From: a virus
DNA length: 52,114 bases
Virus record (IMG/VR): IMGVR_UViG_3300042462_000264
Coordinates: 1-52,114 of that record
Direction: 5' to 3' (one strand)
Part shown: positions 3,461-37,700 of the stretch, in pieces
How the letters are laid out: each line of letters opens with the position of its first letter
Position numbering within the stretch: the first letter of the stretch is position 1
The notes under the pieces: generated by a model
What the model was told of the DNA's origin: nothing
The model's database searches: none
Seen by the model: the letters and a program-made list of their open reading frames with translations, nothing else
Position numbers and translations under genes: made by a program

Positions 3461-3468
3461 TATTTATG
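3461..3468 (-). promoter_or_regulatory. T4-type late promoter-like box (CATAAATA)
   Basis: CATAAATA on the minus strand overlaps the stop codon of the 875-residue adhesin gene. It is 34 bases upstream of the ATG at 3427 and would serve the 85-residue protein and the coupled oxygenase. Confidence 0.5.
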
Positions 3469-17799: not shown

Positions 17800-20700
17800 T
17801 TAATTGAGGTCTGTTGGGTTAAATGGTAGAGTCAACATGAGATCATACGCATCGCTTCCAGTCATCAAATCTGTCGGTAACGATTCAGAAGATCTCTTTG
17901 TCAAAAGAACTCTATTATAAGTTACAAACGAAGTGGAATCAGTTGCAGTAAACAATAGTCGAACGTTGCTTCCGCTTATGTCAGAAGAAAACACGCCAAC
18001 ATTCGAACCAAAAGAAGATGTTCCATACTGTATTAAATTTGTAGTAGAGTCATCATGAATAATCATGATTTCAGTGGCATAATATCCAGCGCCACTTTCA
18101 ACTTGAACTTGATACTTACCGCTGCGATAGGTATTCTTAGACCAAGAATCGACTGTTTCAACAGAAGATGTGCTTGTGTTATAGTTGTATTCTGTTAAAC
18201 CAGAACCTTCTAATGGTCCCAAATCACGAATATGTGTAAAGGTCAATACATCGTTAATCTCAGCAGCTGTATTTAACGTTACAGTATTTCCAGTCACTGT
18301 GAAGTGTAGATTTGGTGTGAGCAACAAACCATTCTTAGAGATAGAGAGTCGGCTTATTGCAGCAACATTACTCGTGACATAGAATGTATTCGTTTGCGAA
18401 GCGACAGTGTTTGAATCAACTTCAATTTTTGTATTTGGATACTCTACAATATTAACTTGATCAAAATAACGAACTTCGATCGCATCGTTTGCCGCACCAG
18501 ATTCGATTACAGTAAGTGTATTTCCACTGAGGCTATAATCCGTATTTGGTGTAAGAACAATACCGTTCTTAATCACAAAGATATATGAAGGATCTGATGG
18601 TGTTAATGGTAGAGCATACGTTAAATTTGCTGCAGCATTTGTGGAAGTATAAGAAACAGTTTTGATGATTGTATTTGACAATCCAACTGGAACAGAAATT
18701 GTTACATTACTTCCACTTGCTGTTGCAGTTACACCACCACCAGTAAAGTCAATCGAAGTTACAGCTGATGTAAGAGTTGTTCCTTCGTCTTTAACGATAA
18801 CGTTAGCTGCGCCACCGCCACCACCAGTACTGGTGAATGTAATAGATTTTGGTGATGCATTATTGTTTGCAGCAATCGAAATTCCACTGCCAGCAATAAA
18901 GTTTACAGTATCAAGACCAACTGCAACAAGTCCAGCATTTCCATCTACGTTCCAATTCTTGAATGTACTATTCAACTGAATCGTGACTGTGTTCGAAGCA
19001 GCATTTACAACTGCCATTCCAGAGTCAGAATCAAATTGAATTGTATTGATATTGGTGTAAGTATTGACTACTGTTGAATTGCCAGCATAAATTTCCTTAA
19101 CGGTGATTGGCGCATTTGCCTTTTCATACGCTGCATTTGCTTGAGCATAAACGATATTCGCTTGAGCGTATGCACCGTTAGCCTGTGCATAGGCACCATT
19201 GGCTTGAGAATAAGCTCCATTTGCTTGAGCATAAGCACCGTTGGCTTGCGCATATGCGCCGTTTGCATCATTGTATGCAGCATTTGCTTGTGCATAGACA
19301 ATATTTGCATGGGCATATGCACCGTTGGCGGTATCAAATGCTGCATTCGCTTGAGCATAAGCAACAATCACTGATGGTTCAATAACAATGTTGCCAACCA
19401 TACCACCATGAATTGAACACTGATAAACATAAGTGTTGCCAACAATATTATACGGAACCTTCCAATACAATGTTCCTGAAACTTGCCCCTGAGCGCTACC
19501 GTCAGTAGAAACAACACCAGTTGAAGAAACGTGAGTCAATCCAGTGTTATAATTTGCTCCGCCGCTTGACTGACGAATCATGAATGGGTGACCAGAAACG
19601 TTTAGATCGAACGCTAATGTTTCACCGCCTCTAACGTATACAGTTGGATTATTGCCAGGATATTGATCAAGTAAATATGCAGAGAAGCCAGAGTTTGTTA
19701 CGTTGAGTCGTGTGACTGCAGGTTGGTAATTTGAATTGGCTTGAGCATATGCTAGATTTGCCGTTGCGTTTGCAGTATTTGCTGTGTTATACGCAGCGTT
19801 CGCTTGTCCGTATGCATCATTTGCCGTAGCGCGAGCGGTATTTGCTTGAGCGTAAGAATCATTGGCTGTATTACGAGCAGTGTTTGCCTGCGCATAGGAA
19901 TCATTCGCAGTAGTGCGTGCTGTGTTCGCCTGAGCATAAGCATCATTAGCTGTTGTTCGAGCAGTATTCGCCTGAGCGTAAGAGTCGTTAGCCGTATTTC
20001 TTGCAGTATTGGCTTGAGCATAAGAATCGTTAGCGGTCGTACGAGCTGTATTCGCTTGACCGTATGCGTCATTGGCAGTAGTTCTTGCAGTATTCGCTTG
20101 ATCGTAAGATGCATTTGCAGTATCGCGAGCAGTGTTCGCTTGCAAATACGAGTCATTGGCAGTCGCACGAGCAACGTTGGCTTGTCCATATGCATCATTG
20201 GCGGTCGCGCGTGCCGTATTTGCTTGAGCATAAGCATCCAACGCAGAATCAAACGCATAGAAGAATGTGTCGCCGTCTGACCACTTCCATTGATCAGTAT
20301 TCTCATCCCACTTAATGACAGCGTTTGTTGAACTGCCGCGATTGATTGTGATGAAACTATCAAGAGTTGGCGATCCAGTAACATTCGAATTGAGGATAAT
20401 TTCGTTATCTTCAATTTTTAAAGTTTCAACATTAAGTGTGGTGCTATTTCCGAGTACAGAAAGATTACCAGAAACAACCAAATCACCAGAAATGGTTCCA
20501 CCAGAAATATTAACTTTTAGATTTGCCTCATCATATGCATTATTGGCTTGGAGATAAGCAGCATTTGCTTGACCATATGCATCATTCGCAGTTCCACGCG
20601 CTGTGTTTGCCTGACCATAAGCATCATTGGCTGTAGTGCGCGCTGTGTTTGCTTGATTATAAGAATCATTCGCGGTTGTTCTGGCGGTATTTGCTTGACC

Positions 20701-23700
20701 ATAAGCATCGTTTGCTGTGTCTCGAGCAGTATTGGCTTGAGCATATGCATTGTTACCAGTATCACGTGCAGTATTTGCTTGAGCATACGCATCGTTAGCA
20801 GTTCCACGAGCAGTATTGGCTTGGTCATAAGCAGCATTTGCCTGAGCATATACTATGTTAGCATGCGCATATGCACCGTTCGCCTGATTGAACGCACCGT
20901 TTGCTTGATTGTATGCAGCATTGGCAGTATCTCTAGCAGTATTTGCTTGGTCATAAGAATCAAACGCAGCGATTAGATTTCCACTGCCATCAATTTCAAC
21001 ACCAGAAACAACTAGTGTTGATCCATTTGATGTGATTACCGCATCACCCAAATGTAGTGCATTATTTGAAAGATAAAGATTCTTATATCTCTTGGTTGGT
21101 GAACCAAGGTCGTATGTAACATTTAAATTTGGCTGAACATTATTAGTAATGATGAAGGCACTCACATTGAGATTGCCTGTCATTGTATCGCCAGATTTTA
21201 GAACTCTGGTATTTGCATTATCATATGCAGCGTTAGCCTGAGCATAAACAATATTCGCGTGGGCATAAGCACCGTTCGCTTGAGAATATGCACCATTAGC
21301 AGTATCAAATGCGCCATTTGCCTTATCATAAGCAGCGTTGGCTTGATTAAATGCAGCATTGGCTTGTGCATAAACTATATTAGCGTGAGCATAGGCTCCA
21401 TTGGCTTGAGAATATGCACCATTCGCAGTATTATTTGCAGTATTGGCTTGATTATGAGCGAGTGTTAGATTTGCTTGAGTCGCAACAACATTACCCATCA
21501 AGAGTATGCTATTTGCAGCAATGTTTGCGCGAAGTGTTGCGAGTGTGGTATTTGCGAAGTCGACTATGTTATTTTGGTGACCAGAATCTAATAGATTATC
21601 AAACAAATACCAAGTAGCATCTCCAGCATCGCGAGCAAACCCAGTATGACTCAAGTTGCCGCTGGTATTTTTCGTGGCAATAAATCCTATATCAACAATA
21701 TCATTCAGAATATTATTTGCGCCAAGATAAATTAATGGGTCATCAACAGCATAAGTTGCCACATTGTAATATGTTGTATTACCAGTTATGCTTAAATTAC
21801 CAGAAACGTTCAATGAACCATTAATTGTACCGCCAGCAATATTAAGTTTTAGATTGGCTGTATCGTATGCATTATTGGCTTGAGCGTAGACAATGTTAGC
21901 GTGAGCGTAGGCTCCATTTGCTTGGGCATATGCTCCATTCGCTGTGTCTAGAGCAGTATTGGCTTTGTCATATGCTGCATTCGCTTGATTAAATGCGCTA
22001 TTTGCCTGACCATAAGCGTCATTCGCAGTTGTTCTGGCAGTGTTTGCTTGATTATAAGCAGCGTTCGCTTGATCGAATGCACCATTTGCTTGACCATAAG
22101 CGGCATTTGCAGTATCACGAGCCGTATTTGCTTGAGCATATACAATATTTGCGTGAGCATAAGCCCCATTTGCTTGGGCATATGCGCCGTTTGCCGTATC
22201 TAGAGCAGTATTTGCTTGAGCATATGCGTCATTGGCAGTTGTGCGAGCTGTGTTCGCTTGTCCATATGCATTGTTGCCAGTATCGCGTGCAGTATTTGCT
22301 TGTGCATAGGCTGCATTTGCAGAGTCATTTCCAGTATTTGCCTGATTGAATGCAGCATTTGCTTGAGCGTAAACAATATTAGCATGCGCATAAGCACCAT
22401 TTGCTTGAGCGTATGCACCATTGGCTTGACCAAATGCTAGATTTGCTTGTGCATACGCTCCGTTGGCTTGAGCATAGGCGCCATTTGCTTGAGCGTATGC
22501 ACCATTAGCGGTATCAAGAGCTGTATTCGCTTGAGCGTAAGCATTGTTGCCAGTATCACGTGCCGTATTTGCCTGGTCGCGAGCAGTATTGGCTTGAAGG
22601 TAAGCGTCGTTTGCTGTTGTTCTTGCAGTGTTGGCTTGACCATAGGCATCATTGCCAGTTTCTCTAGCGGTATTGGCTTGATCACGTGCAGTATTTGCTT
22701 GAGCATAAGCATCTAAAGCAGAGTCAAATGCATAGAAGAATGTATCACCATCCGTCCACTTCCACTGATTCGTATTTTCATCCCACTTAATCGAAGCATT
22801 TGTGTTGCTGCCACGATTGATTGTAATAAAGCCATCAAGTGTTGGTGATCCAGTTACATTTGAGTTGAGAATAATCTCATTGTCTTCAATTGCAAGAGTT
22901 TCAACATTTAATGTTGTGCTGTTTCCTAGAACTTCTAGATTTCCAGAAACGATCAAATCACCAGTGATCGATCCACCAGAGATGTTAAGTTTTATATTGG
23001 CTTCAGCGTATGCATTATTGGCTTGTAAGTATGCATCATTAGCAGTATTGCGAGCAGTGTTCGCTTGACTATATGCATCGTTACCAGTATCTCTAGCGGT
23101 ATTCGCCTGAGCATATGCGTTGTTGCCAGTGTCTCTAGCAGTATTGGCTTGCAGATAAGCATTGTTACCAGTGTCTCTAGCGGTGTTTGCTTGAGCGTAA
23201 GAATCATTTGCTGTATCGCGAGCGGTGTTTGCTTGAGCATATGCGTTGTTGCCAGTATCACGTGCCGTATTCGCTTGAGCATATGAATCGTTGGCTGTGC
23301 TTCTTGCAGTGTTTGCTTGCTCATATGCATCATTTGCTGTTGTTCTAGCAGTATTCGCTTGATCAAAACTTGCGTTGGCTTGAGCGTAAACTATGTTTGC
23401 ATGAGCATATGCTGAGTTGGCTTGAGCATAGGCACCATTTGCCTGCGCATACGCACCGTTGGCTTGTGCATAAGCGCCATTGGCTTGGCTATATGCACCA
23501 TTTGCTTGTGAGTACGCACCATTGGCAGTATCAAATGCAACATTCGCTTGAGCATAAATGATCGTTGATGGTGGCTCAATAACAATATTGCCAACCATCG
23601 CAGAATGCACTTGACATTGATAAACGTAAGTGTTGCCTTGAAGTTCAAATGGAACTTTCCAATAAAGAACACCTGTTGTTTTACCTTGTGCACTCGCCCC

Positions 23701-25212
23701 TGTAGAAATTACACCTGTAGTTTCAACGTGAGTCAATCCAGTATTATAATTTGCTCCACCATTTGATTGGCGGATCATGAATGGATGCCCAACTACATTC
23801 AAATTGAATGCAAGAGTTTCACCAGCACGAACATAAAGTGTTGGATCGTCAACGATTGAGCCATATTGATCGAATCTGTATGCTGATGTTCCGCTAGAGG
23901 TCACATCAAATCTTGTTACAGCAGGTTGATAGTCTGCATTGGCTTGAGCATATGCAGCGTTTGCAACATCATAAATTCCATTAGCGTGAGCATAAACACC
24001 ATTCGCTTGTGCATAGGCACCATTGGCTTGCGCATAAGCACCATTTGCCTGAGCGTATGCGCCATTTGCCTGAGCGTAAGCCCCATTAGCCTGTGCATAA
24101 GCGCCGTTGGCTTGTAAGTATGCACCATTTGCTGTTGTTCTAGCATTATTGGCTTGCTCGTAAGCATTTGCTGCTTGAGCAGTAACATTTAATCCAGCTG
24201 TTGTTGAGAATGTTCCAGCATAAATGGTATTGACGCCAGTTATGTCGCCACTTGCACCAGTTGTAACAATATTGCCAGTGACAACAAGACCGCCTGAACT
24301 GATGTTCAGCTGACCAGTCATTGTATCGCCAGCTTTTAGAACTCTCGTGTTTGCATTATCGCTTGCTGCATTTGCTTGCGCATACGCTCCGTTTGCTTGG
24401 GCGTAAGCACCGTTAGCCTGAGCATATGCTCCGTTTGCTTGCGCAAATGCACCATTGGCTTGAGAATAGGCTCCGTTTGCTTGAGCATAGGCACCATTGG
24501 CTTGTGCATACGCTCCGTTGGCTTGAGCATATGCGCCCAAAGAAGAATCTAGTGCATAATATACGCCATTGCCATCCGACCACTTCCATTGATCAGTGCT
24601 TTCATCCCACTTAAGAACAGCATTTGTCATTGATCCACGATTGATCGTTATGAACGAGTCAAGTAATGGTGGACCAGTTACATTTGAATTGAGAATAATT
24701 TCATTGTCTTCGAGTGACAATGTTTCAACATTAAGTGTTGTTGTATTACCGAGAACTTCGAGGTTTCCAGTTACAGTAAGACTTCCTGTAATTGTACCGC
24801 CACCAAGACCGAGTTTTAAGTTGGCTTCAGCATATGCAGCATTTGCTTGGTCTAGAACGTTTAAGCCACCACTAACAAATGATGTTGTAGCAATAAATGT
24901 ATTTGTTAAAAGACTGTTTGCTTGTGCTGATAGTATAGAGTCGCCGATGTATACAGTGTTACCACCAAAGTATGCATCTTTGTATCGATAAGTTGGACTA
25001 CCAAGATTGTATGTATTATTGACAGACGGAATTACGTTTTGCGTAATAATTGTCGCAGCAACATTTAAGTTGCCTGTCATCGTTGAGCCTGATCTATAAA
25101 CGACTGTGTTTATAAGATCTAGAATATCGTTTGCATATAGATCGCCGACTCTCGTCACTTTGCCGAAAGTAACCTTACCGATCTGATTATTATTCGTAAT
25201 CGTTATCTTCAT
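17800..25212 (-). CDS. Giant tail fibre (2470 residues) with Ala-core heptads and cupredoxin-like inserts
   Basis: About half the protein is an AYAQANG/TARDTAND heptad repeat with Ala at positions 1 and 5 and Asn at 6, roughly 170 units by eye, suiting a long alanine-core coiled coil. Inserted are: two LGSPTxRYKxxYxxxN modules (residues ~50-105, ~1340-1405), three copies of SGNLxVLGN...VETLxIEDNEIILNSNVTG...IKWDExTDQWKWSDG (~133-223, ~740-835, ~1565-1660), one DIGFIATKN...HTGFARD module (~1120-1240), and two cupredoxin-like domains (~430-545, ~1830-1945). The beta-rich C-terminus (~2040-2470) carries two repeats related to the 670-residue fibre. The gene starts inside TAATG of the 110-residue gene. 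It is the best candidate for a long host-contacting fibre. Confidence 0.88.
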   Translation of the reverse strand: MKITITNNNQIGKVTFGKVTRVGDLYANDILDLINTVVYRSGSTMTGNLNVAATIITQNVIPSVNNTYNLGSPTYRYKDAYFGGNTVYIGDSILSAQANSLLTNTFIATTSFVSGGLNVLDQANAAYAEANLKLGLGGGTITGSLTVTGNLEVLGNTTTLNVETLSLEDNEIILNSNVTGPPLLDSFITINRGSMTNAVLKWDESTDQWKWSDGNGVYYALDSSLGAYAQANGAYAQANGAYAQANGAYSQANGAFAQANGAYAQANGAYAQANGAYAQANAASDNANTRVLKAGDTMTGQLNISSGGLVVTGNIVTTGASGDITGVNTIYAGTFSTTAGLNVTAQAANAYEQANNARTTANGAYLQANGAYAQANGAYAQANGAYAQANGAYAQANGAYAQANGVYAHANGIYDVANAAYAQANADYQPAVTRFDVTSSGTSAYRFDQYGSIVDDPTLYVRAGETLAFNLNVVGHPFMIRQSNGGANYNTGLTHVETTGVISTGASAQGKTTGVLYWKVPFELQGNTYVYQCQVHSAMVGNIVIEPPSTIIYAQANVAFDTANGAYSQANGAYSQANGAYAQANGAYAQANGAYAQANSAYAHANIVYAQANASFDQANTARTTANDAYEQANTARSTANDSYAQANTARDTGNNAYAQANTARDTANDSYAQANTARDTGNNAYLQANTARDTGNNAYAQANTARDTGNDAYSQANTARNTANDAYLQANNAYAEANIKLNISGGSITGDLIVSGNLEVLGNSTTLNVETLAIEDNEIILNSNVTGSPTLDGFITINRGSNTNASIKWDENTNQWKWTDGDTFFYAFDSALDAYAQANTARDQANTARETGNDAYGQANTARTTANDAYLQANTARDQANTARDTGNNAYAQANTALDTANGAYAQANGAYAQANGAYAQANLAFGQANGAYAQANGAYAHANIVYAQANAAFNQANTGNDSANAAYAQANTARDTGNNAYGQANTARTTANDAYAQANTALDTANGAYAQANGAYAHANIVYAQANTARDTANAAYGQANGAFDQANAAYNQANTARTTANDAYGQANSAFNQANAAYDKANTALDTANGAYAQANGAYAHANIVYAQANNAYDTANLKLNIAGGTINGSLNVSGNLSITGNTTYYNVATYAVDDPLIYLGANNILNDIVDIGFIATKNTSGNLSHTGFARDAGDATWYLFDNLLDSGHQNNIVDFANTTLATLRANIAANSILLMGNVVATQANLTLAHNQANTANNTANGAYSQANGAYAHANIVYAQANAAFNQANAAYDKANGAFDTANGAYSQANGAYAHANIVYAQANAAYDNANTRVLKSGDTMTGNLNVSAFIITNNVQPNLNVTYDLGSPTKRYKNLYLSNNALHLGDAVITSNGSTLVVSGVEIDGSGNLIAAFDSYDQANTARDTANAAYNQANGAFNQANGAYAHANIVYAQANAAYDQANTARGTANDAYAQANTARDTGNNAYAQANTARDTANDAYGQANTARTTANDSYNQANTARTTANDAYGQANTARGTANDAYGQANAAYLQANNAYDEANLKVNISGGTISGDLVVSGNLSVLGNSTTLNVETLKIEDNEIILNSNVTGSPTLDSFITINRGSSTNAVIKWDENTDQWKWSDGDTFFYAFDSALDAYAQANTARATANDAYGQANVARATANDSYLQANTARDTANASYDQANTARTTANDAYGQANTARTTANDSYAQANTARNTANDSYAQANTARTTANDAYAQANTARTTANDSYAQANTARNTANDSYAQANTARATANDAYGQANAAYNTANTANATANLAYAQANSNYQPAVTRLNVTNSGFSAYLLDQYPGNNPTVYVRGGETLAFDLNVSGHPFMIRQSSGGANYNTGLTHVSSTGVVSTDGSAQGQVSGTLYWKVPYNIVGNTYVYQCSIHGGMVGNIVIEPSVIVAYAQANAAFDTANGAYAHANIVYAQANAAYNDANGAYAQANGAYAQANGAYSQANGAYAQANGAYAQANIVYAQANAAYEKANAPITVKEIYAGNSTVVNTYTNINTIQFDSDSGMAVVNAASNTVTIQLNSTFKNWNVDGNAGLVAVGLDTVNFIAGSGISIAANNNASPKSITFTSTGGGGGAANVIVKDEGTTLTSAVTSIDFTGGGVTATASGSNVTISVPVGLSNTIIKTVSYTSTNAAANLTYALPLTPSDPSYIFVIKNGIVLTPNTDYSLSGNTLTVIESGAANDAIEVRYFDQVNIVEYPNTKIEVDSNTVASQTNTFYVTSNVAAISRLSISKNGLLLTPNLHFTVTGNTVTLNTAAEINDVLTFTHIRDLGPLEGSGLTEYNYNTSTSSVETVDSWSKNTYRSGKYQVQVESGAGYYATEIMIIHDDSTTNLIQYGTSSFGSNVGVFSSDISGSNVRLLFTATDSTSFVTYNRVLLTKRSSESLPTDLMTGSDAYDLMLTLPFNPTDLN
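19376..19725 (-). other. Cupredoxin-like domain, copy 2 (within giant fibre)
   Basis: Residues about 1830-1945 of the giant fibre. TVYVRGGETLAFDLNVSGHPFMIRQ supplies the first candidate copper ligand (His of GHPF), and YVYQCSIHGGMVGNIVIEP supplies Cys, His and Met in the C-x2-H-x2-M spacing of type 1 copper sites. It aligns closely with copy 1. Confidence 0.75.
23575..23930 (-). other. Cupredoxin-like domain, copy 1 (within giant fibre)
   Basis: Residues about 430-545 of the giant fibre. TLYVRAGETLAFNLNVVGHPFMIRQ is followed about 58 residues later by YVYQCQVHSAMVGNIVIEP. The four residues His, Cys, His and Met are arranged as in plastocyanin-type blue copper proteins. The flanking segments are heptad arrays. 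Confidence 0.75.
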
Positions 25213-25544
25213 TATCTGGACACCTGTGGTGTCACAGTTAGAATACCTTCTACGACTCGAGTTGTTATGTTATCTGTATCAGTCATCTTTACGTCATAAA
25301 GATAACGACCTGCTCTAATGTTTGCAGTGACTGCTGAATTTAAAGACATGATTAGATTTCCACCTGTATTACTTAAAGTGGTAATTGTCAGATTTGCAGT
25401 TACATTGGAAGAATAATAAGATTTGCGAACTTGACCCAAGAAAACGCACCCTGCGATATTGATCGCAGCGCCATCATCGCCAACTAAATCTATAGAAGTT
25501 TCGAAAGTTGTGCCCTGATCAACCGTTAACTCTGCGTATGGCAT
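25212..25544 (-). CDS. Small phage structural protein preceding the giant fibre
   Basis: 110 residues, MPYAELTVDQGTTFETSIDLVGDDG...VFLGQVRKSYYSSNVTANLT...AGRYLYDVKMTD...VVEGILTVTPQVSR. This beta-sandwich pattern is typical of small proteins beside fibre genes in T4-like marine phages and resembles baseplate upper protein (BppU-type) N-terminal domains. It is coupled to the giant fibre gene by TAATG, so it is probably made in step with it and may attach or cap it. No catalytic motif is visible. The nearest promoter-like element is the TATAAATA box about 105 bases upstream. Confidence 0.78.
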   Translation of the reverse strand: MPYAELTVDQGTTFETSIDLVGDDGAAINIAGCVFLGQVRKSYYSSNVTANLTITTLSNTGGNLIMSLNSAVTANIRAGRYLYDVKMTDTDNITTRVVEGILTVTPQVSR

Positions 25545-25569: not shown

Positions 25570-26517
25570 TTATTCAGAATCGCCTACTTCCCAGTCAATA
25601 TCGATGCTTGGTTTAATCACTCGGGTTATGGCACGTTCTTCTATTTTCTTATTTATATAATTCACGCCAGAGTAGACTCGGTATTCCTCGAGTAAATCGT
25701 CCTCGAGAGAGTCTAAAAATGCTCTAAATTCAATTTCTGATCTACGTTTTCTCTCTTCAATGATCTCTAAAGGAACAACAGGTTTAAAGTCCTGCTTTGA
25801 TGTATGTTCATTAGATCCTTTATAGTGATAGCACGACATCCTCTTTCCGTGGAAAAATCGATATCCTGCAGCAAACGATGAGAGAGTTATCGCTTGCTCC
25901 TCTCCATGAAAGAATATTCTAGGATTGATTCCGACATTTCGAACCCAATCAGAGTGTGTAAACATATTTCCAGCAAAGATGTGTATCGCTGGCATCACGG
26001 TTTCAGTTGGAGGAATATGTTCGCCGTGAGCAAAAAGCCAAAGATTTGGATTAAACTGATAGAATCTTGCTCTGCATGTATAGTCCATGCCATGCTCTAA
26101 AACGACATTACCATCGACCATCTCGAAATTTTTACAGTTCGAACTGATAATGACTCTGTTTGACTCGATCGCTCTACAGCCTTCTTTATAATCGTTAATT
26201 AAATCGCGATCCCAATTCTTATCGAAAACCATGTGAGAGTCGATCTGATAATAAAAATCCTCGTCAGTTAACTGGAGAGCATTAATATTTCGAGCCCAAC
26301 CAACACCTTCCGAGTATTGTGGATCGATTCGTTTATATTTTACATCGCTTCTGGCGACTAGATCTGGAAATAGAGTTTCTAAACTATTTTCTTTTTCATT
26401 TTGTTCAAATATGCCGTACACAACTTCTGTAATTGCAGACTTGGTCTGCATTAATGCTTTTAGAGTGTATACTAACAGAGGGTCTCTGTATGAGCATATG
26501 CTTACAAATATCTTCAT
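25570..26517 (-). CDS. GlcNAc-type glycosyltransferase (PF11397 / GT60-like)
   Basis: 315 residues. Opening FVSICSYRDPLLVYTLKAL (4-22), VGWARNINALQL (72-83), YYQIDSHMVFDKNWD (89-103, with D93-S-H95 as the metal/nucleotide-sugar DxD-type motif), IFAGNMFTHSDW (180-191), FFHGEEQAITLSSFAAGYRFFHG (202-224) and CYHYKG (229-234) follow the order of the Glycosyltransferase (GlcNAc) family. A known member type is the Dictyostelium enzyme that adds GlcNAc to hydroxyproline of Skp1. The acceptor here is unknown. It is last in a four-gene overlapping cassette that begins with a prolyl-hydroxylase-like gene, and it overlaps its neighbour by ATGA. Confidence 0.82.
   Translation of the reverse strand: MKIFVSICSYRDPLLVYTLKALMQTKSAITEVVYGIFEQNEKENSLETLFPDLVARSDVKYKRIDPQYSEGVGWARNINALQLTDEDFYYQIDSHMVFDKNWDRDLINDYKEGCRAIESNRVIISSNCKNFEMVDGNVVLEHGMDYTCRARFYQFNPNLWLFAHGEHIPPTETVMPAIHIFAGNMFTHSDWVRNVGINPRIFFHGEEQAITLSSFAAGYRFFHGKRMSCYHYKGSNEHTSKQDFKPVVPLEIIEERKRRSEIEFRAFLDSLEDDLLEEYRVYSGVNYINKKIEERAITRVIKPSIDIDWEVGDSE
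25650..25657 (-). promoter_or_regulatory. Exact T4 late promoter consensus (TATAAATA)
   Basis: The only exact TATAAATA among the boxes reported here. It lies within the last 30 codons of the glycosyltransferase gene and about 105 bases before the ATG of the 110-residue gene, so it could drive that gene and the giant fibre as a late unit. The distance and coding overlap lower confidence. Confidence 0.4.
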
Positions 26518-27332
26518 TCTTTATTGCTTTCTTCTAGTGCGAAACTCTTTTTAATCATATGATTCTTTCGATAAAATTGCGTTTCGTGGATTTTAGGATC
26601 GTATGATAATATGCTTTTTTGTTCTATGTTTGGTGGTCCATAACCACATTCAATTTGTTTATTATAAAACGGAATGACGTGTAATAAAGGATCTCCCGCT
26701 TTAATCGTATACTCACACTTTCTTTTTGGAGAAAGAATGACATTCATAGTATGAAATGTATTATAATCAACAACTCCAGGATAAACATAAAAATTATCTA
26801 AAAACTCTACGTCTGCATGATACCAAGCAGGAAGAAGTAATGCTGATATATCTTTGTCGTAAGAAAATATTTTCCAAGGAGAATTGATATTATATGTTTT
26901 AAGTGGAATTCCGTCGCTTAATTTAAAAAGACCATCGACAACATCAGTTGCCATCGGAACTGGAGGCTTAAATGGAGATGCTTTTTGTCCCCCACCAACT
27001 AATGCAGCACATCCAGCTTTATTTATCTTAAAATGATAGTCTGACCAGGCTGGAACAATGTAGCCAAGTCGCGAATAGTCAAACATGCCAGGGCAGACTG
27101 GAAATGTGAACTTATTTCCGAGCTTTTCTACATGTGCTTGCGAGTTTACAGGAACATCTTTTGCTAATTGAATTGGTAAACTAGCAAATACGAGTTCTGA
27201 TGAATCGATAAATTCTAACTTGTTTCTACCAATAGTCGATTGAACAACAGAAGTGTTTGAGATTTCCTTAATCTCATCGTCAATCGAATCATTAAATGTT
27301 TCTTTAGGTTTAAAAAAATCAAAAAATTTCAT
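26514..27332 (-). CDS. Cassette protein of unknown function, paralogue of the next-upstream gene
   Basis: 272 residues. Blocks FPVCPGMFDYSRLGYIVPAW, SPWKIFSYDKDISALLLPAW, LDNFYVYPGVVDYNTFHTMN and KAGDPLLHVIPFY line up in order with the 242-residue protein at 27329-28057 (CFPMIDAMSLGYTIP, NYWIIKTAPGWSTLFIPP, LGGLVDTDRYPKEVNFPAIW, RAGTPLVTAIPI). The fold looks beta-rich with a charged N-terminal 45-residue extension lacking in the other. It overlaps both neighbours by ATGA. No known catalytic motif is seen. Because it sits between a hydroxylase and a glycosyltransferase, a substrate-presenting or cupin-like role is imaginable, but this is only inference. Confidence 0.7.
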   Translation of the reverse strand: MKFFDFFKPKETFNDSIDDEIKEISNTSVVQSTIGRNKLEFIDSSELVFASLPIQLAKDVPVNSQAHVEKLGNKFTFPVCPGMFDYSRLGYIVPAWSDYHFKINKAGCAALVGGGQKASPFKPPVPMATDVVDGLFKLSDGIPLKTYNINSPWKIFSYDKDISALLLPAWYHADVEFLDNFYVYPGVVDYNTFHTMNVILSPKRKCEYTIKAGDPLLHVIPFYNKQIECGYGPPNIEQKSILSYDPKIHETQFYRKNHMIKKSFALEESNKE

Positions 27333-28057
27333 CGTTCATCTCTCAATTCATTTGTGTATACATTTTTTCTGGTCACTTGTTTCTTTCGAATCAATTCAAT
27401 CTCATTAAATTCTTTATCTTTAATTTTTCTGACTTTTGGTTTTTTCGGAAATGAATTTCTCTTAATTGGGATTGCAGTCACCAGAGGAGTTCCTGCACGA
27501 ATTAATCCATCAAAACCAGGCTGATTCCAAATTGCTGGAAAATTAACTTCCTTTGGATATCTATCAGTGTCAACTAATCCACCCAAACAAGTAAATGGAG
27601 TTCCAACATGATTAATTGGAGGAATAAACAATGTCGACCAGCCTGGAGCAGTCTTAATAATCCAATAATTGATAAACTTGATCGGATTGATTGGAAATCC
27701 TGGGGCTGACTCTCCACCAATTTGTTCAACGTTATGGCTATCTGCCAATTTCATTTCTGGTGGGCTTGTATACTTCATTTCTGTCATATCGTTATTGACC
27801 ATGACATGAATATCACCACACAATGGTATTGTATATCCCAAAGACATTGCATCAATCATTGGGAAACACTTTTTAGCATTCATCGCAAAGTCATTGTATT
27901 CATCTCTCCGAGTCTTTGAAACTGGAGGAATAATTCTAAACCACTCAGGCAAATATTTGATTGCTGGCTTTGGTTCAGGAATGACATTCTCAAACTTTGG
28001 GTGACAGTAAAATTCAATCACATCATTTTTAAAAACACGAATCAATTTGTTTAGCAT
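27329..28057 (-). CDS. Cassette protein of unknown function (possibly DUF6065-like)
   Basis: 242 residues. IEFYCHPKFENVIPEPKPAIKYLPEWF is a pattern I associate, from memory and without a search, with a phage family of unknown function (DUF6065-type). Conserved blocks LGYTIPL, GWSTLFIPPINHVGTPF and RAGTPLVTAIPI reappear in the downstream 272-residue paralogue. The C-terminal 40 residues are strongly basic. The start overlaps the stop of the oxygenase gene (ATGCTAA), and the stop overlaps the next start (ATGA), so all four cassette genes are translationally linked. Confidence 0.65.
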   Translation of the reverse strand: MLNKLIRVFKNDVIEFYCHPKFENVIPEPKPAIKYLPEWFRIIPPVSKTRRDEYNDFAMNAKKCFPMIDAMSLGYTIPLCGDIHVMVNNDMTEMKYTSPPEMKLADSHNVEQIGGESAPGFPINPIKFINYWIIKTAPGWSTLFIPPINHVGTPFTCLGGLVDTDRYPKEVNFPAIWNQPGFDGLIRAGTPLVTAIPIKRNSFPKKPKVRKIKDKEFNEIELIRKKQVTRKNVYTNELRDER

Positions 28058-28641
28058 ACTCTTTTACCCATAATCCAAGCAACCAAAGATTTACGAACTC
28101 CAGATTTAACTGGCGCAACTCTATGCGGCATCCAAGAAGCAAAGAATATTACAGAACCTTTTGGTGGTTTTATTGAGTGCGGTTTTTCTATATTTCCATC
28201 CGCAACAATTTGAAATTCTCCACCAGAATATTTTTTGGGGTCTGATAAAATTACCACTGCACTAATCTTTCGTTCGAAGCCATGAAATTCTGTGAAGGCA
28301 TCAAAGTGCCAATTATAATGTTGCTTTGGTTTATACTTGGTGTATTGAAACGCATCAAAACCATCAATATCATACATGAAGTGAGAGTGGTTTACTTGAC
28401 CCATCAATGAACCAAATTTATCAAATATCCATCTAGAATCTGGGCTCCATTTCAACCAAGAAATGTCACTGTCGCGATATTGTTTATTAGTGGTTGTTGA
28501 TGGACCAGTTCCCATCTTACCCTCACTGAATTCTTGCAATTCTTCAAGATCAATAATTTTATCGACTTCTTCTTCAGTGAAATAATTATCAACAATACAA
28601 AACTGAGGAAGTGGTTTTATGTACTTTGTGAATGATGGCAT
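28051..28641 (-). CDS. 2OG-Fe(II) oxygenase, prolyl-4-hydroxylase/PKHD-like, first gene of cassette
   Basis: 196 residues. The metal site is H112-F-D114 and H173 (WMPHRVAPVKSG), with R183 for 2-oxoglutarate, and SGGEFQIV forms the typical strand between them. The N-terminal part QFCIVDNYFTEEEVDKII is the usual prolyl-4-hydroxylase-like opening. All key residues are present, so it should be active. It is the first gene after a strong sigma70-type promoter and overlaps the following gene by seven bases. Known relatives hydroxylate proline or other side chains. The nearby Pro-rich repeat protein and a hydroxyproline-type glycosyltransferase in the same operon point to protein hydroxylation. Confidence 0.88.
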   Translation of the reverse strand: MPSFTKYIKPLPQFCIVDNYFTEEEVDKIIDLEELQEFSEGKMGTGPSTTTNKQYRDSDISWLKWSPDSRWIFDKFGSLMGQVNHSHFMYDIDGFDAFQYTKYKPKQHYNWHFDAFTEFHGFERKISAVVILSDPKKYSGGEFQIVADGNIEKPHSIKPPKGSVIFFASWMPHRVAPVKSGVRKSLVAWIMGKRVC

Positions 28642-28664
28642 AATATAACTCCAAGATTTAAATC

Positions 28665-28693
28665 ATTATACTACAATCTATAAAAAATTTCAA
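28665..28693 (-). promoter_or_regulatory. Near-consensus sigma70 promoter of the four-gene cassette
   Basis: On the minus strand TTGAAA (28693-28688) is separated by exactly 17 bases from TATAAT (28670-28665). The -10 ends 24 bases before the ATG of the oxygenase gene, and TTGGAG before the ATG is a ribosome-site candidate. It lies just after the stop of the 649-residue repeat protein, in the only gap of over 50 bases in this part of the window. Confidence 0.72.
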
Positions 28694-28695
28694 GT

Positions 28696-30645
28696 TTATT
28701 CAATCTTCACTACTATGTATGCACCTGTTGGAACAGTGACTGGATAGGTCGCATTATCTGGATAGTCCCAATAATTCACTACAGTTTCTGGAACATATGG
28801 AGCAACGCCAGCAACACCGCCTGGGAAGTATACACCAAGAACAGTTGTTGGTGTTCCAGGAACTCCTGGAGTAAATGGATACACTGTTGGATTTGTTGTT
28901 CCTGGCACAGTATTATAACTTGCAGGGACGAATGGATACACTGTTGGATTTGTTGTTCCTGGCACAGTATTATAACTTGCAGGCACGAATGGATACGACG
29001 GTGGATTTGTCGTTCCTGGAACCGTGTTATAACTTGCAGGAACGAATGGATAATTGGTTGGATTTAAGTTTCCTGATACTGTGTTATACGATGCTGGTGT
29101 ATACGGATAATTGGTTGGATTTGTTGTCCCAGGAACAGTATTGTAAGACGCTGGTGTGTATGGATAAGTTGGTGGATTGCTGTTACCAGGAACCGTATTA
29201 TACGATGCAGGAGTAAACGGATAATTAGTCGGATTCAAGTTACCAGGAACTGTATTATAACTTTCTGGAGTATATGGATACACTGTCGGATTTACATTTC
29301 CTGGAACAGTGTTATAACTTGCAGGAACATAAGGATAGTTCGTTGGATTTAAGTTTCCAGGAACTGTATTATACGATGCTGGTGTGTATGGATAATTGGT
29401 TGGATTTAAATTGCCAGGAACAGTGTTATAACTTGCAGGAACATAAGGATAGTTCGTTGGATTTAAATTTCCTGGGACTGTATTGTACGATGCAGGGGTA
29501 AACGGATAATTGGTTGGATTTACATTTCCTGGAACTGTATTATACGACGCAGGTGTATATGGATAATTGGTAACTGTGTTATAACTCGCAGGATTTTCAG
29601 TATTTCCAGCTGGGAAACATTCATATGTGAATTCGTCTGGACCAAACGGAGTTGGTGTGCTATATGGTGATGGGCAATTTGTATCAAATCCGTCACCAAT
29701 TATTGTTGCAACACCACCGTAACTTGGTCCGATTGCAGTCAAATTCCAACTAACACCTGTTGGTGCGTTATATGAGCCTGGAGTATATGGATAGTTTGTT
29801 ACAGTGTTATAACTCTCTGGAGTGTACGGATAATTCGTTGGATTTGTATTTCCAGGAACTGTGTTATAACTTTCTGGGGTATATGGATAGTTAGTTGGAT
29901 TAGTATTTCCAGGAACAGTATTATAGGAAGCTGGTGTATATGGATAGTTTGTTGGATTTGTATTTCCAGGAACAGTGTTGTAACTCTCTGGTGTATATGG
30001 ATACACTGTTGGATTCAAATTACCAGGAACAGTATTATATGATGCAGGAACGAATGGGTAGTTAGTTGGATTAGTGTTTCCAGGAACTGTATTGTACGAA
30101 GCTGGTGTGTATGGATAATTGGTTGGATTTAAGTTTCCTGGCACTGTATTGTATGATTCAGGAGTAAATGGATAATTTGGCGGATTACTATTTCCTGGAA
30201 CAGTGTTATAACTTTCTGGAGTATATGGATACACTGTTGGATTGGTTGTTCCAGGAACAGTGTTGTAACTATCTGGTGTGTAAGGATAGTTTGGTGGATT
30301 TGTATTTCCAGGCACAGTATTATAACTAGCAGGAACAAAGGGAAACGTTGTAGGATTTGTCGTTCCAGGCACTGTATTATATGATGCTGGAGTAAACGGA
30401 TAAGTTGTTGGATTTAAATTTCCAGGAACCGTATTATACGATGCTGGTGTGTATGGAAATGTAGTGGGATTAGTTGTTCCTGGAACAGTGTTGTATGAAG
30501 CACCTGAACCAGAACCACCACGACCTGAAACTGTGGTTTTATTTCTACCATAAGCAATATTAATATTGCCAGTAGTATTGAATGTCGTTGTTCCTCTGGA
30601 AGGACCAGGAATCCAAGTTTTGTTTAAGCCAAAACTATTCGGCAT
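28696..30645 (-). CDS. Pro/Tyr/Asn 19-residue repeat protein, probable tail structural protein
   Basis: 649 residues. After a 48-residue head come 12 full units of the type ASYNTVPGNTNPTNYPYTP, one short unit lacking six residues, an insert of about 60 residues with two cysteines (GVSWNLTAIGPSYGGVATIIGDGF), one short unit and 12 more full units, then a C-terminal beta segment ending VPTGAYIVVKIE. Each unit has four prolines and two or three aromatic residues. The central insert resembles a small Ig/TIG-like domain. It lies between a fibre-like gene (347 residues) and the hydroxylase/glycosyltransferase cassette. I do not recognise a named family. A virion or fibre role is inferred from context. 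Confidence 0.8.
   Translation of the reverse strand: MPNSFGLNKTWIPGPSRGTTTFNTTGNINIAYGRNKTTVSGRGGSGSGASYNTVPGTTNPTTFPYTPASYNTVPGNLNPTTYPFTPASYNTVPGTTNPTTFPFVPASYNTVPGNTNPPNYPYTPDSYNTVPGTTNPTVYPYTPESYNTVPGNSNPPNYPFTPESYNTVPGNLNPTNYPYTPASYNTVPGNTNPTNYPFVPASYNTVPGNLNPTVYPYTPESYNTVPGNTNPTNYPYTPASYNTVPGNTNPTNYPYTPESYNTVPGNTNPTNYPYTPESYNTVTNYPYTPGSYNAPTGVSWNLTAIGPSYGGVATIIGDGFDTNCPSPYSTPTPFGPDEFTYECFPAGNTENPASYNTVTNYPYTPASYNTVPGNVNPTNYPFTPASYNTVPGNLNPTNYPYVPASYNTVPGNLNPTNYPYTPASYNTVPGNLNPTNYPYVPASYNTVPGNVNPTVYPYTPESYNTVPGNLNPTNYPFTPASYNTVPGNSNPPTYPYTPASYNTVPGTTNPTNYPYTPASYNTVSGNLNPTNYPFVPASYNTVPGTTNPPSYPFVPASYNTVPGTTNPTVYPFVPASYNTVPGTTNPTVYPFTPGVPGTPTTVLGVYFPGGVAGVAPYVPETVVNYWDYPDNATYPVTVPTGAYIVVKIE
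28866..30502 (-). repeat. 57-bp coding tandem repeat, 24 full and 2 short copies in two blocks
   Basis: Block 1 spans about 29772-30502 and block 2 about 28866-29593, separated by a non-repeat insert. Most copies differ at many synonymous positions, but some adjacent pairs, such as those at about 28870-28985, are nearly identical at DNA level, which points to recent tandem duplication on top of an old array. Confidence 0.92.
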
Positions 30646-30647
30646 GA

Positions 30648-31691
30648 TTATCTCGCGTCTTTAACAGCAAGTGTGCCAATATATGTTGTTCCACCATCAT
30701 ATGTGGTAAATGTCCAGATATCCTGTGCGCTTGCGTCAGTTGTTGGCGGAGGAATTTGTCCACCAGCCCAATACACTGTATTTGTCCAATTTGGAGTTTT
30801 ACCGCCTGTTCCATCTTGAATCACAATCATTGTGAACGTATATGCATTGCCAGAAGCAGGAGGATTTGTGAATGTCAAATTACGATTGCCAGATGATCCT
30901 GTCAATGTATACTTGAACCAGTTTGACACATTTAGTCTTACAGTGTTTGCAGAATCAACTGCAGTGTTGATTAGAATTGGATCACCAGCAAGAACATTAC
31001 CGCTTGGCGCAGTTGAGTATGTGATTTCGCCAGTTGTTACGTTGTAATACAAACAATTGCCTGCATTTGCAGAAGCAACTGGCATGATGAATAGAGAATT
31101 GCTTCGAAGGTCTAGAACGGGTTGCCAACCAGATTCATATCCTGTTGTTGGTGCTGATGTTCCAACGATTGTACTGACACCAAAAATCGTACCATTTTTG
31201 GTCGGAGAAACATTGTAAGCAGAGTCACCGATGACAACCACTTGAGTTGCATTCTCCTCTTCATTCGCAATGACCATTGTGCCATTGGAGTGGAAGGTGA
31301 ATCCGTAATATGGATTATTTGATTTCTGATTTGCAGTATACCAAGTTGCGTTTCCAGCCTCTACAGTATTTGCTGGCTCTTGTGTCATCTTAATGACAGA
31401 AGCAATGTCGCTAGTTCTTAATCCAAACCAGAGTTCTGAGTTTGTTGCAAGAGTATTTGCATTGACCCAACCACCGACAGCAACGTTACCAGAGTTTGCG
31501 ACTGTTAGAACTGTGCCGTTGCTTGAACGGCTGATCGTCATGGTTCCGTTTGCAATGTCAAAAGAAGAATTATCTTTGACATAATGAGCATTTCGAAGAA
31601 TATTTCTATCTTCAATTAAGTCATTAGTTGCTGCACGCCACTCATTAAAGGTGTTCACTAATTGGACATGTGAAATATTTGTGTTCGCCAT
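30648..31691 (-). CDS. Tail fibre-like structural protein
   Basis: 347 residues. The N-terminus ISHVQLVNTFNEWRAATNDLIEDRN then DNSSFDIANGTMTISRS resembles N-terminal attachment regions of fibre proteins in T4-like marine phages. The middle is beta-rich, with NGTMVIANEEE and a GNCLYYNVTTGEITYSTAPSG segment typical of phage fibres. The C-terminal domain (RNLTFTNPPASGNAYTFTMIVIQDGTGGKTPNW, WTFTTYDGGTTYIGTLAVKD) resembles the small C-terminal domains of cyanophage-type fibres. It is followed two bases later by the Pro-rich repeat gene, so the two may form one appendage. Confidence 0.75.
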   Translation of the reverse strand: MANTNISHVQLVNTFNEWRAATNDLIEDRNILRNAHYVKDNSSFDIANGTMTISRSSNGTVLTVANSGNVAVGGWVNANTLATNSELWFGLRTSDIASVIKMTQEPANTVEAGNATWYTANQKSNNPYYGFTFHSNGTMVIANEEENATQVVVIGDSAYNVSPTKNGTIFGVSTIVGTSAPTTGYESGWQPVLDLRSNSLFIMPVASANAGNCLYYNVTTGEITYSTAPSGNVLAGDPILINTAVDSANTVRLNVSNWFKYTLTGSSGNRNLTFTNPPASGNAYTFTMIVIQDGTGGKTPNWTNTVYWAGGQIPPPTTDASAQDIWTFTTYDGGTTYIGTLAVKDAR

Positions 31692-34782: not shown

Positions 34783-37700
34783 TTAATGTAATGCTATTCT
34801 ATCTTCATAAACAAGATCTCTCAACATTCCGCCACCGCCGATGGAGATTTCTGGATCGGTACTAACTGGTGCAGCATACCAGGTATCAACAGTTGATACG
34901 ATTGGAGCCAAGCCCGTAATATCCGCTGGAATAGGATCTAGTGGAGGTGGCACAAAATCGATTAATGAAATCGTTCCCACTCCGTCAATGTAGATTGGTG
35001 GCGGAGTTGGTGGAGACACTGGAGCTGGTGGTTGTGGAAGTACCAAAACCTGACCAATCGTTGCTGGATCTGGATATGGAACTGGATCCATCACAATTTG
35101 TGGATATGCTGTTGGTGGATCCACTGTTTGAGTTGGAATCAAGTATGCTGGAGGTGCTACAGGCTCAAAGACGATAGCTGGAACTGGTACTGCTGGCGGC
35201 AATACTGGTTCAACTCGAGTATCAAGAACTGGAGAGTAAACATCAATAACAGGTGGTGGTTCCACAAATTTCACTGGAGGATCACATTTAATAAGTTCTG
35301 GAACATAATGTATTGATGGTGGTGGAACAATTTCTGTATCTGAATTGAGCACAGGTGGAAGCATCACAGAATAGTAATGATCCGTTGATGGGAACAAATG
35401 CACATCACCCTCAAACTTACCAGCAAGAACTGGTGGAATGATTGCAGTGTTTTTTGTTGCCGCTGTTTGAGCATTAATAATCTTTTCTGTTCCAGGAATT
35501 GTCCACATGACTTTCTTAGGCATGGTTGGATAATCTGGCGTTGTGTATGTCTTAGATTGTGGAACTAAATTAATATTAGTTGTTTTAGCATATGGTTTTA
35601 ATTTACCACCATCAATAGAGCACACAAAGTCTCCACTGGTGCTATCACCAACTTTAAACCCTGTAAAGTTGTCTACAATAATGCCATACTTCTCTTTCTG
35701 CGTTGCGTTGTCTTCATATAGAATTGCAGAGTCTTTAGCCTTTGTTTCAGCTAAAGTAAGTGCAGAATAGTATTCAACGTTTCTGATTCGCTGTTCAAGT
35801 TTACCAATGTCACGCATTGTATATCTCTTATGATCAAGAGCTCTTGCTGTGACATGAGTATGTGAACTTGTGTAGGCTGGAATATCCATCGTAAACAAAG
35901 TCATAGCATCACTTTGATCTGGCGGATACTTTGGATCTTTATTCGGAATACCGCTGACAACCTTCAATTCTTTTGACGACGTCAATACAATCTTATCTCT
36001 TCTTGGGAGATAGTATTCATAAGTCAATTCCATTGGCTCATATGGTAATGGAATTCTTGCGCCGAAGAATGTGTTGGCTGTTGTTCCGAGTGTTCTCGTT
36101 GGACGGAAATCAATACAATCTCTAAGAACGTATTCAACACCATCACCAGATTTAAAGATACCGATTTGACCGTTCGAATACTGTGTCTCTGGATAAGAAT
36201 CAACGCTGAAGTATCCAGTTGTTGTGGCGTGTTGATAGTATTCAACAAAGACCACTGTCTGACCACTTGGGGCTGTTCTTCCTGGCTTGAGGACTAACTT
36301 AGAATGATCATAGTATTCTGCTGTTTGTCCAGTATCAAGCATAAAGTTATTTGTCACATCAATTGCATTTGTCGTGTTCGGCATGTATGCAGGATTTCCA
36401 GAAGTATAAACCTTAATAAGTTTATAAACGTCTGGAATATAGAGTGATGTGTTGCCACCAGAAGTTTTATTAATTGTACTCGCTGGATCTGTGAACCAAA
36501 TACGACCATTTGAAGAGTCAATATAAACTGAAGTGCATCCAGTAACTGTAGTGTGTGGCGTGTAACTATCTGTTGCCAACAGTGTTGTATTTGCAACGTT
36601 GCCAACTCTTGTCTTACTACGAACATTGTTTCCGCTGTTCTCAGAATTTTCCATCTTGACTCTGACATAGATGTCAGCAGTGAAAGATCCATTGATTCCA
36701 GAGGTGATACTTAACCCTGTTGATGACGTTCTTGTAACACTTGATGGTGTAAAGATTTGTCCATTTGCAACTGGAGTAGAGTTTCCGCTATATGCCGTTG
36801 CAGTCCCAAGAGTTTTAATTACAAAGATGAAATTTTGACCAAGTAGTGTGGAAGAAATCGTGCTGCCGTCAGATCCAAAATCGAGCACTTCATTACCAGT
36901 CAAAGTGAGCGTTGAAACACCACTTGAATTAAATGATTGCGCTTCGAAGAATCGATTTGTCACATAATCAGCATTGTCAATTGAACCACGCTCAATTTGA
37001 ACATCTGGGAATTTGAATAATAAAGTTTTTCTATTTGAGTCGTAAACAATAGTTCGACCAGTGACGTCTTTACTATTATTCGAAACATTCATTGAAACAT
37101 TGAATGCTGTTTTGGCTGCATTTGCTTGAATAAGAGAATCAATATCTCGAGTGCTGTATAGAAGCGAGAATGTTTGACCAGATCCAATCAATCCAGTAAA
37201 TGGAACATCAACAACACCAACTCTTGTTGTTGAGTTGTAATCAACAATACGACGAACATCGCCAGAAGATGCACCAGAAGTAATTCTTACTGAGACATTT
37301 TGGTATGCATTAGCGATGTTTGCATAGTTGACTGGGAAATTGATTGCAAGAGTATTTGCACCAGTCGTTCCAGCAGTAACGGTGTTCGATGTTAATTGCA
37401 TATCGCTCAAGTAAACAATAAATTCTTCTCCAGAATTTCGAGTGATATGCTTTAATTTTGCGCTACCCATAAAGGTTGCGTTGTAAGTAATAGCATTTGT
37501 CAAATTGACACTGTTCTTTGGAACGCAGTGCAACTCGAGTGTTGGTAGATTTGCTGAATTTAAGAATCCGCTAGTATTTGATGCTAAGATTGAATTTGCA
37601 TACAAATAGTTGCCATATTCTAAAGACAGATCATAGTCTGTTGAGATTTGAGTTGTGCGTGCTTTCGGAATCGTAAGTCTTTGTGGACCGATTGCCTCAT

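Follow-up and report, generated by a model that had tools for sequence, protein, structure and literature searches.

The window, the whole 52,114-nucleotide stretch of viral DNA that was analysed (IMG/VR record IMGVR_UViG_3300042462_000264), carries at positions 25570-30645 a block of genes encoded entirely on the minus strand and surrounded by a T4-like baseplate/tail-fibre module (Table 1). The gene order is repeat protein, oxygenase, D242, D272 and glycosyltransferase, and the last four ORFs overlap by 7, 4 and 4 bases, confirming the compact four-gene cassette recognised in a preliminary description of this DNA. That description also mentioned a DUF4815 tail protein, which exists but lies outside the block.

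Table 1. Genes of the repeat-protein locus and its surroundings, with positions in the window.
Feature	Position	Strand	Assignment
DUF4815 protein	34783-38691		DUF4815, 1.4e-54
Tail-fibre protein, 347 aa, directly upstream of repeat protein	30648..31691	-	phrog_9017 tail fibre, 1.6e-13
Repeat protein (REP), 649 aa	28696..30645	-	probable tail-fibre/virion surface protein
2OG-Fe(II) oxygenase, 196 aa	28051..28641	-	prolyl-4-hydroxylase-like; PF13640, phrog_61
D242, 242 aa	27329..28057	-	phrog_7084; predicted dUTPase/dCTP-deaminase-like fold
D272, 272 aa	26514..27332	-	D242 paralogue; phrog_7084
Glycosyltransferase, 315 aa	25570..26517	-	GT60-type; PF11397
Tail-associated protein, 110 aa, after cassette	25212..25544	-	phrog_1084, 2.3e-21; phrog_3304 tail-fibre assembly, 4.4e-18
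Fibre-like protein, 2470 aa, AYAQANG repeats, after cassette	17800..25212	-	PF11839 alanine zipper, 3e-23

The repeat protein is probably a tail-fibre or virion surface protein, as judged from its position among tail genes, and it gave no match of its own in Pfam and PHROG searches. Its array consists of 24 full 19-residue units with the consensus SYNTVPGNxNPTNYPYTPA, together with two 13-residue units. The number of full units agrees with the preliminary description, which had assigned four prolines to each; exactly four are found in only 19 of them, with five in four units and three in one. It can be seen that the canonical prolines at positions 6, 11, 15 and 18 are present in 23, 24, 24 and 24 of the 24 units, respectively, and that S1 and T4 are invariant. 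The codons of these prolines have a third-position entropy of 1.17 versus 0.26 and 0.42, indicative of synonymous drift. Since proline has been kept despite this drift, the repeat reflects neither chance nor a recent amplification of DNA. A collagen-like protein (PF01391) was considered and rejected, there being no Pfam match and no glycine at every third residue of the 19-mers.

Conserved N- and C-terminal segments flank the array. In an AF2 model of a short homologue (L171) the ends reach pLDDT values of up to ~95 and the repeats (58-212) fall below 50, and the two terminal segments are predicted to fold together. A structure search with this end domain gave no PDB match and pointed to no specific adhesin fold. 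Proline occurs in 40/40 repeat-protein clusters, at 4-32%, with Lys and Cys almost absent; Ser plus Thr make up 6-43% of every array, and the commonest motif shared by the arrays is [YF]N (median 6.5 per 100 residues). [YF]N is nearly missing from the repeat protein of L231, in which Pro reaches 32%, and the unit type NYNPLVPGNL of L060/L063 has no Ser or Thr, which do occur elsewhere in both proteins. The partners in L089 and L092 are low in proline (just 4-6%) and rich in asparagine (26%), an observation that we count against the proposal developed below.

The oxygenase matches PF13640 (1.4e-18) and phrog_61 (3.9e-40). The iron triad and 2OG-binding arginine previously ascribed to it, H112, D114, H173 and R183, proved to be correct, and this HDHR set is kept in 71/75 sequences of the family. 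When its profile was compared with the PDB, PKHD-type hydroxylases ranked first, followed by bacterial and algal prolyl 4-hydroxylases, and this order also weighs against the proposal; a distant match was 4iw3/4j25, a bacterial prolyl hydroxylase acting on EF-Tu. PF13640 is not specific for proline. The signature of the protein is that of a P4H-like 2OG-Fe(II) oxygenase, with a putative specificity for peptidyl-proline.

An HMM search bore out the PF11397 layout attributed to the transferase (8e-32; 111.5 bits against a cut-off of 21), and on its sequence the protein is a member of this GT60-type family, with UDP-GlcNAc as putative donor and Hyp or Ser/Thr as putative acceptor. The DSH motif lies at 93-95 and HGEE at 204-207. 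Across a 19-member alignment D93, S94, H95, E206 and E207 are invariant and G205 is at least 90% conserved, and the relatives do not conserve the initial H of HGEE. Comparison of the transferase profile with PDB sequences returned nothing meaningful. GT60 includes polypeptide alpha-GlcNAc transferases that act on Ser/Thr (PMC8724618), a further point on the debit side of the proposal.

The paralogues D242 and D272 match phrog_7084 at 7.5e-48 and 2.1e-17, respectively. When an AF2 model of D242 (pLDDT 80) was compared with the PDB by Foldseek, dUTPase/dCTP deaminase structures ranked highest (E 6e-4, prob 1.0); the TM scores reach 0.74 when scaled to the target but only ~0.3-0.4 when scaled to the query. 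Among PDB sequences the D242 profile found nothing meaningful and no dUTPase, and one D272 homologue weakly matches PF00692 dUTPase (E 0.19). The 26.6-bit cut-off of DUF6065 (PF19541) was not reached, D242 scoring 22.8 and D272 giving no match. D242 is the constant partner of the hydroxylase, and its homologues in haloarchaeal hafunaviruses are encoded close to ribonucleotide reductase. The scheme described below offers the two dUTPase-like proteins no obvious task, which is likewise counted against it.

IMG/VR was searched from four independent seeds: the hydroxylase, the glycosyltransferase, D242 and the C-terminal domain of the repeat protein. With the glycosyltransferase as seed, the hydroxylase and the repeat protein were found upstream in 21/21 assessable clusters (the L012 repeat protein within this count being recognised by BLAST), matching the co-occurrence of the three genes that the preliminary description had proposed to check. 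The repeat-protein seed recovered the hydroxylase in 83/83 loci; in L061/L265 an intact hydroxylase ORF is present in another frame. Searches seeded with the hydroxylase and with D242 agree with the other two. The gap between the end of the repeat protein and the hydroxylase is usually 5-81 bp, and the linkage spans divergent phages, with oxygenase identity down to 44%. Related phages keeping the cassette but lacking a Pro-rich substrate had been envisaged earlier; no cassette without a repeat protein was found among the 21 glycosyltransferase clusters and 83 repeat-protein-seeded loci. A chance neighbourhood is ruled out by the four seed searches. Given the 21/21 and 83/83 linkage, the repeat protein is well supported as the substrate of the enzymes, and modification of a host protein is much less likely.

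None of the isolates in the phage collection has the glycosyltransferase cassette, which we also enter against the proposal. In cellular genomes the glycosyltransferase gave one match only, in a 4.4-kb contig with a complete cassette (L225) binned in a Chitinophagaceae MAG; this is probably a phage contig, and it is therefore weak evidence for the host.

The cassette varies between loci. Some have the oxygenase but no GT60, and some GT60-less cassettes (e.g. L171, L231) have a sulfotransferase-like gene, a swap that would be the pattern expected of an exchangeable decoration step. In twin loci (L083, L087, L173) there are two repeat proteins, and behind each comes a separate oxygenase-like gene. 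The first oxygenase of the twin loci has lost the second metal-binding His, which again counts against the proposal, and the first oxygenase of L084-L086, though present, lacks the second iron His. Related hydroxylase/D242 pairs also follow collagen-like Pro-Gly proteins (L116, L033). Neither the two middle genes of the cassette nor the sulfotransferase and collagen-linked variants figured in the preliminary description.

From these sequence features we consider it fairly probable that a dedicated phage operon makes and tailors its own tail fibre by hydroxylation followed by glycosylation or sulfation. The two ends of the repeat protein would form a small domain displaying a long, flexible array, nearly uncharged and rich in Pro, Asn, Tyr and Thr, on the virion surface. 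In the infected cell the 2OG-Fe(II) oxygenase would hydroxylate residues of the array, most likely prolines, and the PF11397 transferase would next add a sugar, most likely HexNAc, to hydroxyproline or else to Ser/Thr, leaving a tail surface that carries glycans. The dUTPase-like pair may act as helpers of the oxygenase that perhaps bind the repeat chains or present them. Which protein is modified and at which residues, what sugar is attached, in what order the steps run, how the pair contributes and what the phage gains are all inferred here. The earlier suggestion that the phage modifies its own repeat protein is partly supported, and well supported as regards the substrate, with proline, a hydroxyproline-linked sugar and HexNAc as its putative parts. 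Proline, kept through synonymous drift and always present, is the likely target of hydroxylation, and it is plausible that hydroxyproline bears the sugar, with Ser/Thr the main rival acceptor. In its most specific form, which we put forward tentatively, uncultured T4-like phages would carry out hydroxyproline O-glycosylation of their own fibres, by means of an intrinsically disordered fibre of Pro/Asn/Tyr repeats, a prolyl hydroxylase matched to it, two helper proteins of predicted dUTPase-like fold, and either GT60 or a sulfotransferase as the interchangeable decorating enzyme.

The two enzymes could instead work independently, with the transferase glycosylating Ser/Thr of the repeats in a mucin-like manner and the oxygenase hydroxylating Pro or Asn for stability. 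The Ser/Thr content of every array, the invariant S1 and T4 of the window repeat, the Ser/Thr-acting members of GT60 (PMC8724618) and the oxygenases that occur without GT60 all speak for this reading. We nevertheless think it rather unlikely, since every assessable GT-positive cluster also has the oxygenase and many unit types, such as NYNPLVPGNL, have no Ser/Thr, even though other parts of those proteins do. A target at the Asn (or Tyr) of the [YF]N motif, with the transferase acting on the hydroxylated residue, would suit a PF13640 enzyme, the frequency of this motif and the excess of Asn over Pro in L089 and L092. It seems improbable, however, because L231, with almost no [YF]N, retains the oxygenase and D242, and related pairs come after collagen-like Pro-Gly proteins.

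Strict linkage to the repeat protein in divergent phages, joint duplication and placement in the tail module all argue against the idea that the enzymes have a host target (Skp1-like regulation, hydroxylation of EF-Tu or receptor masking) and merely adjoin a fibre gene. The preliminary description had named host modification as the main alternative; the known pathway of both families does target a cytosolic regulator, Skp1, and a bacterial prolyl hydroxylase, the distant PDB match, acts on EF-Tu, but on the linkage tests we set it aside as a main reading and judge it very unlikely. It is harder still to credit that the cassette produces a nucleotide or a small molecule, which the predicted fold of D242 and the hafunavirus homologues near ribonucleotide reductase might suggest: PF11397 transferases and P4H-like oxygenases are families that modify proteins, the repeat protein accompanies them in all cases, and collagen-like fibre genes, too, are followed by the oxygenase/D242 pair.

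Hydroxylation-dependent glycosylation is known from plants, algae and protists. We found no prior report of phage hydroxyproline glycosylation in the open-access literature searched and, if the most specific form of the proposal is true, prokaryotic viruses would, to our knowledge, gain their first example of a hydroxyproline-linked glycan system. Phages would then own a hydroxylation-dependent glycosylation of tail parts, whose exchangeable decorating step could protect the tails, adjust adsorption or lend stability to flexible fibres. It would also give a function to the viral prolyl hydroxylases, which are very abundant; as the likely substrate adjoins the enzyme in every relative examined, expressing a single gene pair would put the question to a direct test.

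The closest parallel is the Skp1 pathway of Dictyostelium and Toxoplasma, in which a prolyl 4-hydroxylase and then Gnt1 (GT60) act in the cytosol (PMC8724618). Genes of these two families, 2OG prolyl hydroxylases and GT60/PF11397 alpha-GlcNAc transferases, share one cassette here, but the tail repeat protein proposed as substrate has ~120 prolines, whereas Skp1 has one modified Pro, and the phage cassette has two dUTPase-like proteins and no further Gal/Fuc transferases. No Skp1-like protein was found among the window proteins scanned; the locus is not a member of the Skp1 pathway, although it may work similarly. PBCV-1 encodes a prolyl 4-hydroxylase whose peptide substrates have been characterised (Eriksson 1999, as cited in PMC9301287). 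Unlike the phages considered here, PBCV-1 infects algae. We know of no linked GT60 or dedicated neighbouring substrate for its enzyme. Cyanophage 2OG-Fe(II) oxygenases (phrog_61) belong to the same family as the window enzyme, and in S-CAM8 one is clustered next to a tail-fibre gene, but without GT60 or a match to the window repeat protein. Xanthomonas phage XacN1 and Stenotrophomonas phages CM1/RAS14 have a related PF11397-type transferase (~25% identity), which in XacN1 has carbamoyl transferase and DNA polymerase genes in its neighbourhood and no oxygenase or repeat protein. Mimivirus, as cited in PMC8968730, modifies its own collagen with a bifunctional lysyl hydroxylase/glycosyltransferase, so that there, as is proposed here, a virus hydroxylates and then glycosylates its own repeat protein. 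In Mimivirus, one enzyme of a eukaryotic virus acts on Lys of collagen, whereas here separate P4H-like and GT60 enzymes of prokaryotic viruses would act on a non-collagen repeat.

The preliminary description had placed a prolyl-4-hydroxylase-like oxygenase and a glycosyltransferase directly after a proline-rich repeat protein; all of its ORFs are present on the minus strand, and the residues it named were found to be correct. The four cassette ORFs, encoding the oxygenase, the paralogous 242 aa and 272 aa proteins (D242 and D272) and the transferase (GT, or GT60), overlap successively by 7, 4 and 4 bases. Assignment of the transferase to PF11397 was borne out by an HMM match at 8e-32, far over the cut-off. 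The oxygenase matches PF13640 at 1.4e-18, and PKHD-type hydroxylases are the best matches to its profile, followed by bacterial and algal prolyl 4-hydroxylases. The predicted model of D242 (pLDDT 80) resembles dUTPase/dCTP deaminase structures (E 6e-4) and one D272 relative weakly matches the Pfam dUTPase family (0.19), pointing with moderate strength to such a fold.

The virus record that makes up the window (52 kb) comes from a T4-like myovirus. Upstream of the repeat protein and cassette lie genes for a tail tube cap, baseplate wedge proteins (gp6- and gp8-like), a hub with tail lysozyme and a DUF4815 protein, and downstream are fibre genes, including a 2470 aa AYAQANG-repeat protein and several Gly-rich proteins; the immediate flanks are a tail-fibre-like gene on one side and a tail-fibre-assembly-like gene on the other. 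Two further 2OG-Fe(II) oxygenases (Table) adjoin large Gly-rich fibre proteins, and the tail module thus has three 2OG oxygenases.

IMG/VR was searched separately with the oxygenase, a GT alignment, D242 and the C-terminal 69 residues of the repeat protein as seeds. Since many contigs are near-identical, cluster counts are safer than locus counts. The oxygenase recovered 63 loci, nearly all ordered repeat protein, oxygenase, D242, D272, GT; at two of them (L075, L076) a cyanophage-type oxygenase lies outside the cassette. The GT seed gave 80 loci, and the pooled GT sequences formed 25 clusters at 80% identity. After omission of the outgroup phage XacN1 (one cluster) and contig-end cuts (three), the proposed co-occurrence held throughout, with oxygenase and repeat protein upstream of the GT in 21/21 clusters, counting L012, whose repeat protein was missed by HMM and found by BLAST. 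The D242 search agreed. Reciprocally, the repeat-protein seed gave 83 new loci, every one with the oxygenase (82 directly; L265, the same contig as L061, on reading a masked ORF) and 67 with GT60. No isolate in the phage collection was found to carry the GT cassette. One 4365 bp contig (L225), with a complete cassette and a repeat-protein tail, was binned in a Chitinophagaceae MAG; it is probably phage, and the binning is a weak hint of the host.

Cassette content varies. L083, L087, L173 and their relatives are arranged as repeat protein A, oxygenase a, GT, repeat protein B, oxygenase b, D242, D272, giving one oxygenase per repeat protein. Consistently across relatives, the second iron-binding His of oxygenase a is replaced by Ala or Ser, with H and D conserved; it may therefore be inactive or altered there, a possible pseudo-enzyme or one of altered chemistry. 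One L083 repeat protein has a Hint/intein-like domain (PF01079, PF14890) at its C-terminus, which suggests that this fibre may splice or cleave itself. GT60 is absent from several cassettes, of which L166, L171 and L231 have a 207-235 aa ORF bearing two sulfotransferase-like motifs, PK(T/N)G close to the N-terminus and RxPxxRF; the L166 ORF matches PF03567, as does one at L091, where a GT is present.

The oxygenase/D242 pair also occurs beside collagen-like proteins. In L116 a second D242/oxygenase pair comes after a 1245 aa example (PF01391, 2e-39); in L033 a similar pair lies close to a collagen-like ORF rich in Gly, with a glutaredoxin-like ORF in between. The pair is thus tied to two unrelated types of Pro-containing repeat protein. 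D242 homologues, 43-50% identical to the L116 type, are common in haloarchaeal hafunaviruses and adjoin ribonucleotide reductase in both inspected; the predicted dUTPase-like fold may aid their annotation. A further candidate pair for fibre glycosylation occurs at L122 and L116, where the gene for a long fibre with collagen-like GPQGPQ repeats precedes that for a GT4-type glycosyltransferase.

Coordinates of features in the window and at homologous loci.
Feature	Locus	Position	Strand	Remark
Repeat protein	window	28696-30645	minus	54 bp gap, then cassette of four ORFs
2OG-Fe(II) oxygenase	window	1598-2173	minus	PF13640, 2.4e-14
2OG-Fe(II) oxygenase	window	2565-3173	minus	PF13759, 1.2e-21
Gly-rich fibre protein	window	3464-6091
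Gly-rich fibre protein	window	6628-9186
Oxygenase a	L083	9426-10001		also L084/L086
Oxygenase a	L087	3393
Oxygenase a	L173	5118
Repeat protein with Hint domain	L083	5790-8006
Sulfotransferase-like	L171	9347-9970		inside cassette
Sulfotransferase-like	L166	8673-9380		inside cassette
Sulfotransferase-like	L231	10810-11511		inside cassette
Sulfotransferase-like	L091	1860-2552		inside cassette
Collagen-like protein, second D242/oxygenase pair	L116	1864-6958
Collagen-like protein, second D242/oxygenase pair	L033	9104-11585	minus
Hafunavirus D242 homologue	L001	8914-9798		beside ribonucleotide reductase
Hafunavirus D242 homologue	L002	8914-9744		beside ribonucleotide reductase
GT4-type glycosyltransferase	L122	11656-12651
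GT4-type glycosyltransferase	L116	19502-20503

The window array holds 24 full 19-residue units, in which Pro is kept at positions 11, 15 and 18 in all 24 and at position 6 in 23, with two to four codons used at each. Mean codon entropy is 1.17 bits at third positions, compared with 0.26 at first and 0.42 at second; with amino acids held while third positions drift, the repeats are old enough for silent drift. Ser1, Tyr2, Asn3, Thr4, Val5, Gly7 and Asn10 are also held, and Pro is therefore not the sole target of selection. Across 40 repeat-protein clusters the N- and C-terminal segments are common to all and the arrays divergent (Pro 4-32%, Asn 7-32%, Tyr/Phe 7-23%, Ser/Thr 6-43%), with Lys and Cys nearly absent. 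In the AlphaFold2 model of the short L171 homologue both ends are folded at high confidence and residues 58-212 are disordered; no relative was found in the PDB.

The strict adjacency, the joint duplication, the exchangeable decorating enzymes and the placement in the tail module speak for the repeat protein being the substrate and for its tailoring by the operon. It would be hydroxylated first and glycosylated next, where we infer order, residues and sugar; what the linkage itself demonstrates is functional association, not chemistry. Composition bears on which residues are involved: the oxygenase is kept both at L231, where Pro amounts to 32% and [YF]N is almost absent, and at L092, where Pro amounts to 4% and [YF]N occurs 11 times per 100 residues. 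Pro occurs in every repeat protein, but in variable share, and Asn may therefore be the target instead. The main rival is that Ser/Thr residues of the repeats are glycosylated and hydroxylation is independent.

The proposed modification of the repeat protein by hydroxylation and then glycosylation matches the known joint use of the two enzyme families, on Skp1 (PMC8724618). No report of hydroxyproline glycosylation in phages was found in the open-access literature searched. Virus-encoded prolyl hydroxylases are abundant and their use is unknown (PMC9301287). Mimivirus collagen is both hydroxylated and glycosylated (PMC8968730), a case of a virus modifying its own repeat protein by the two steps that we propose here.
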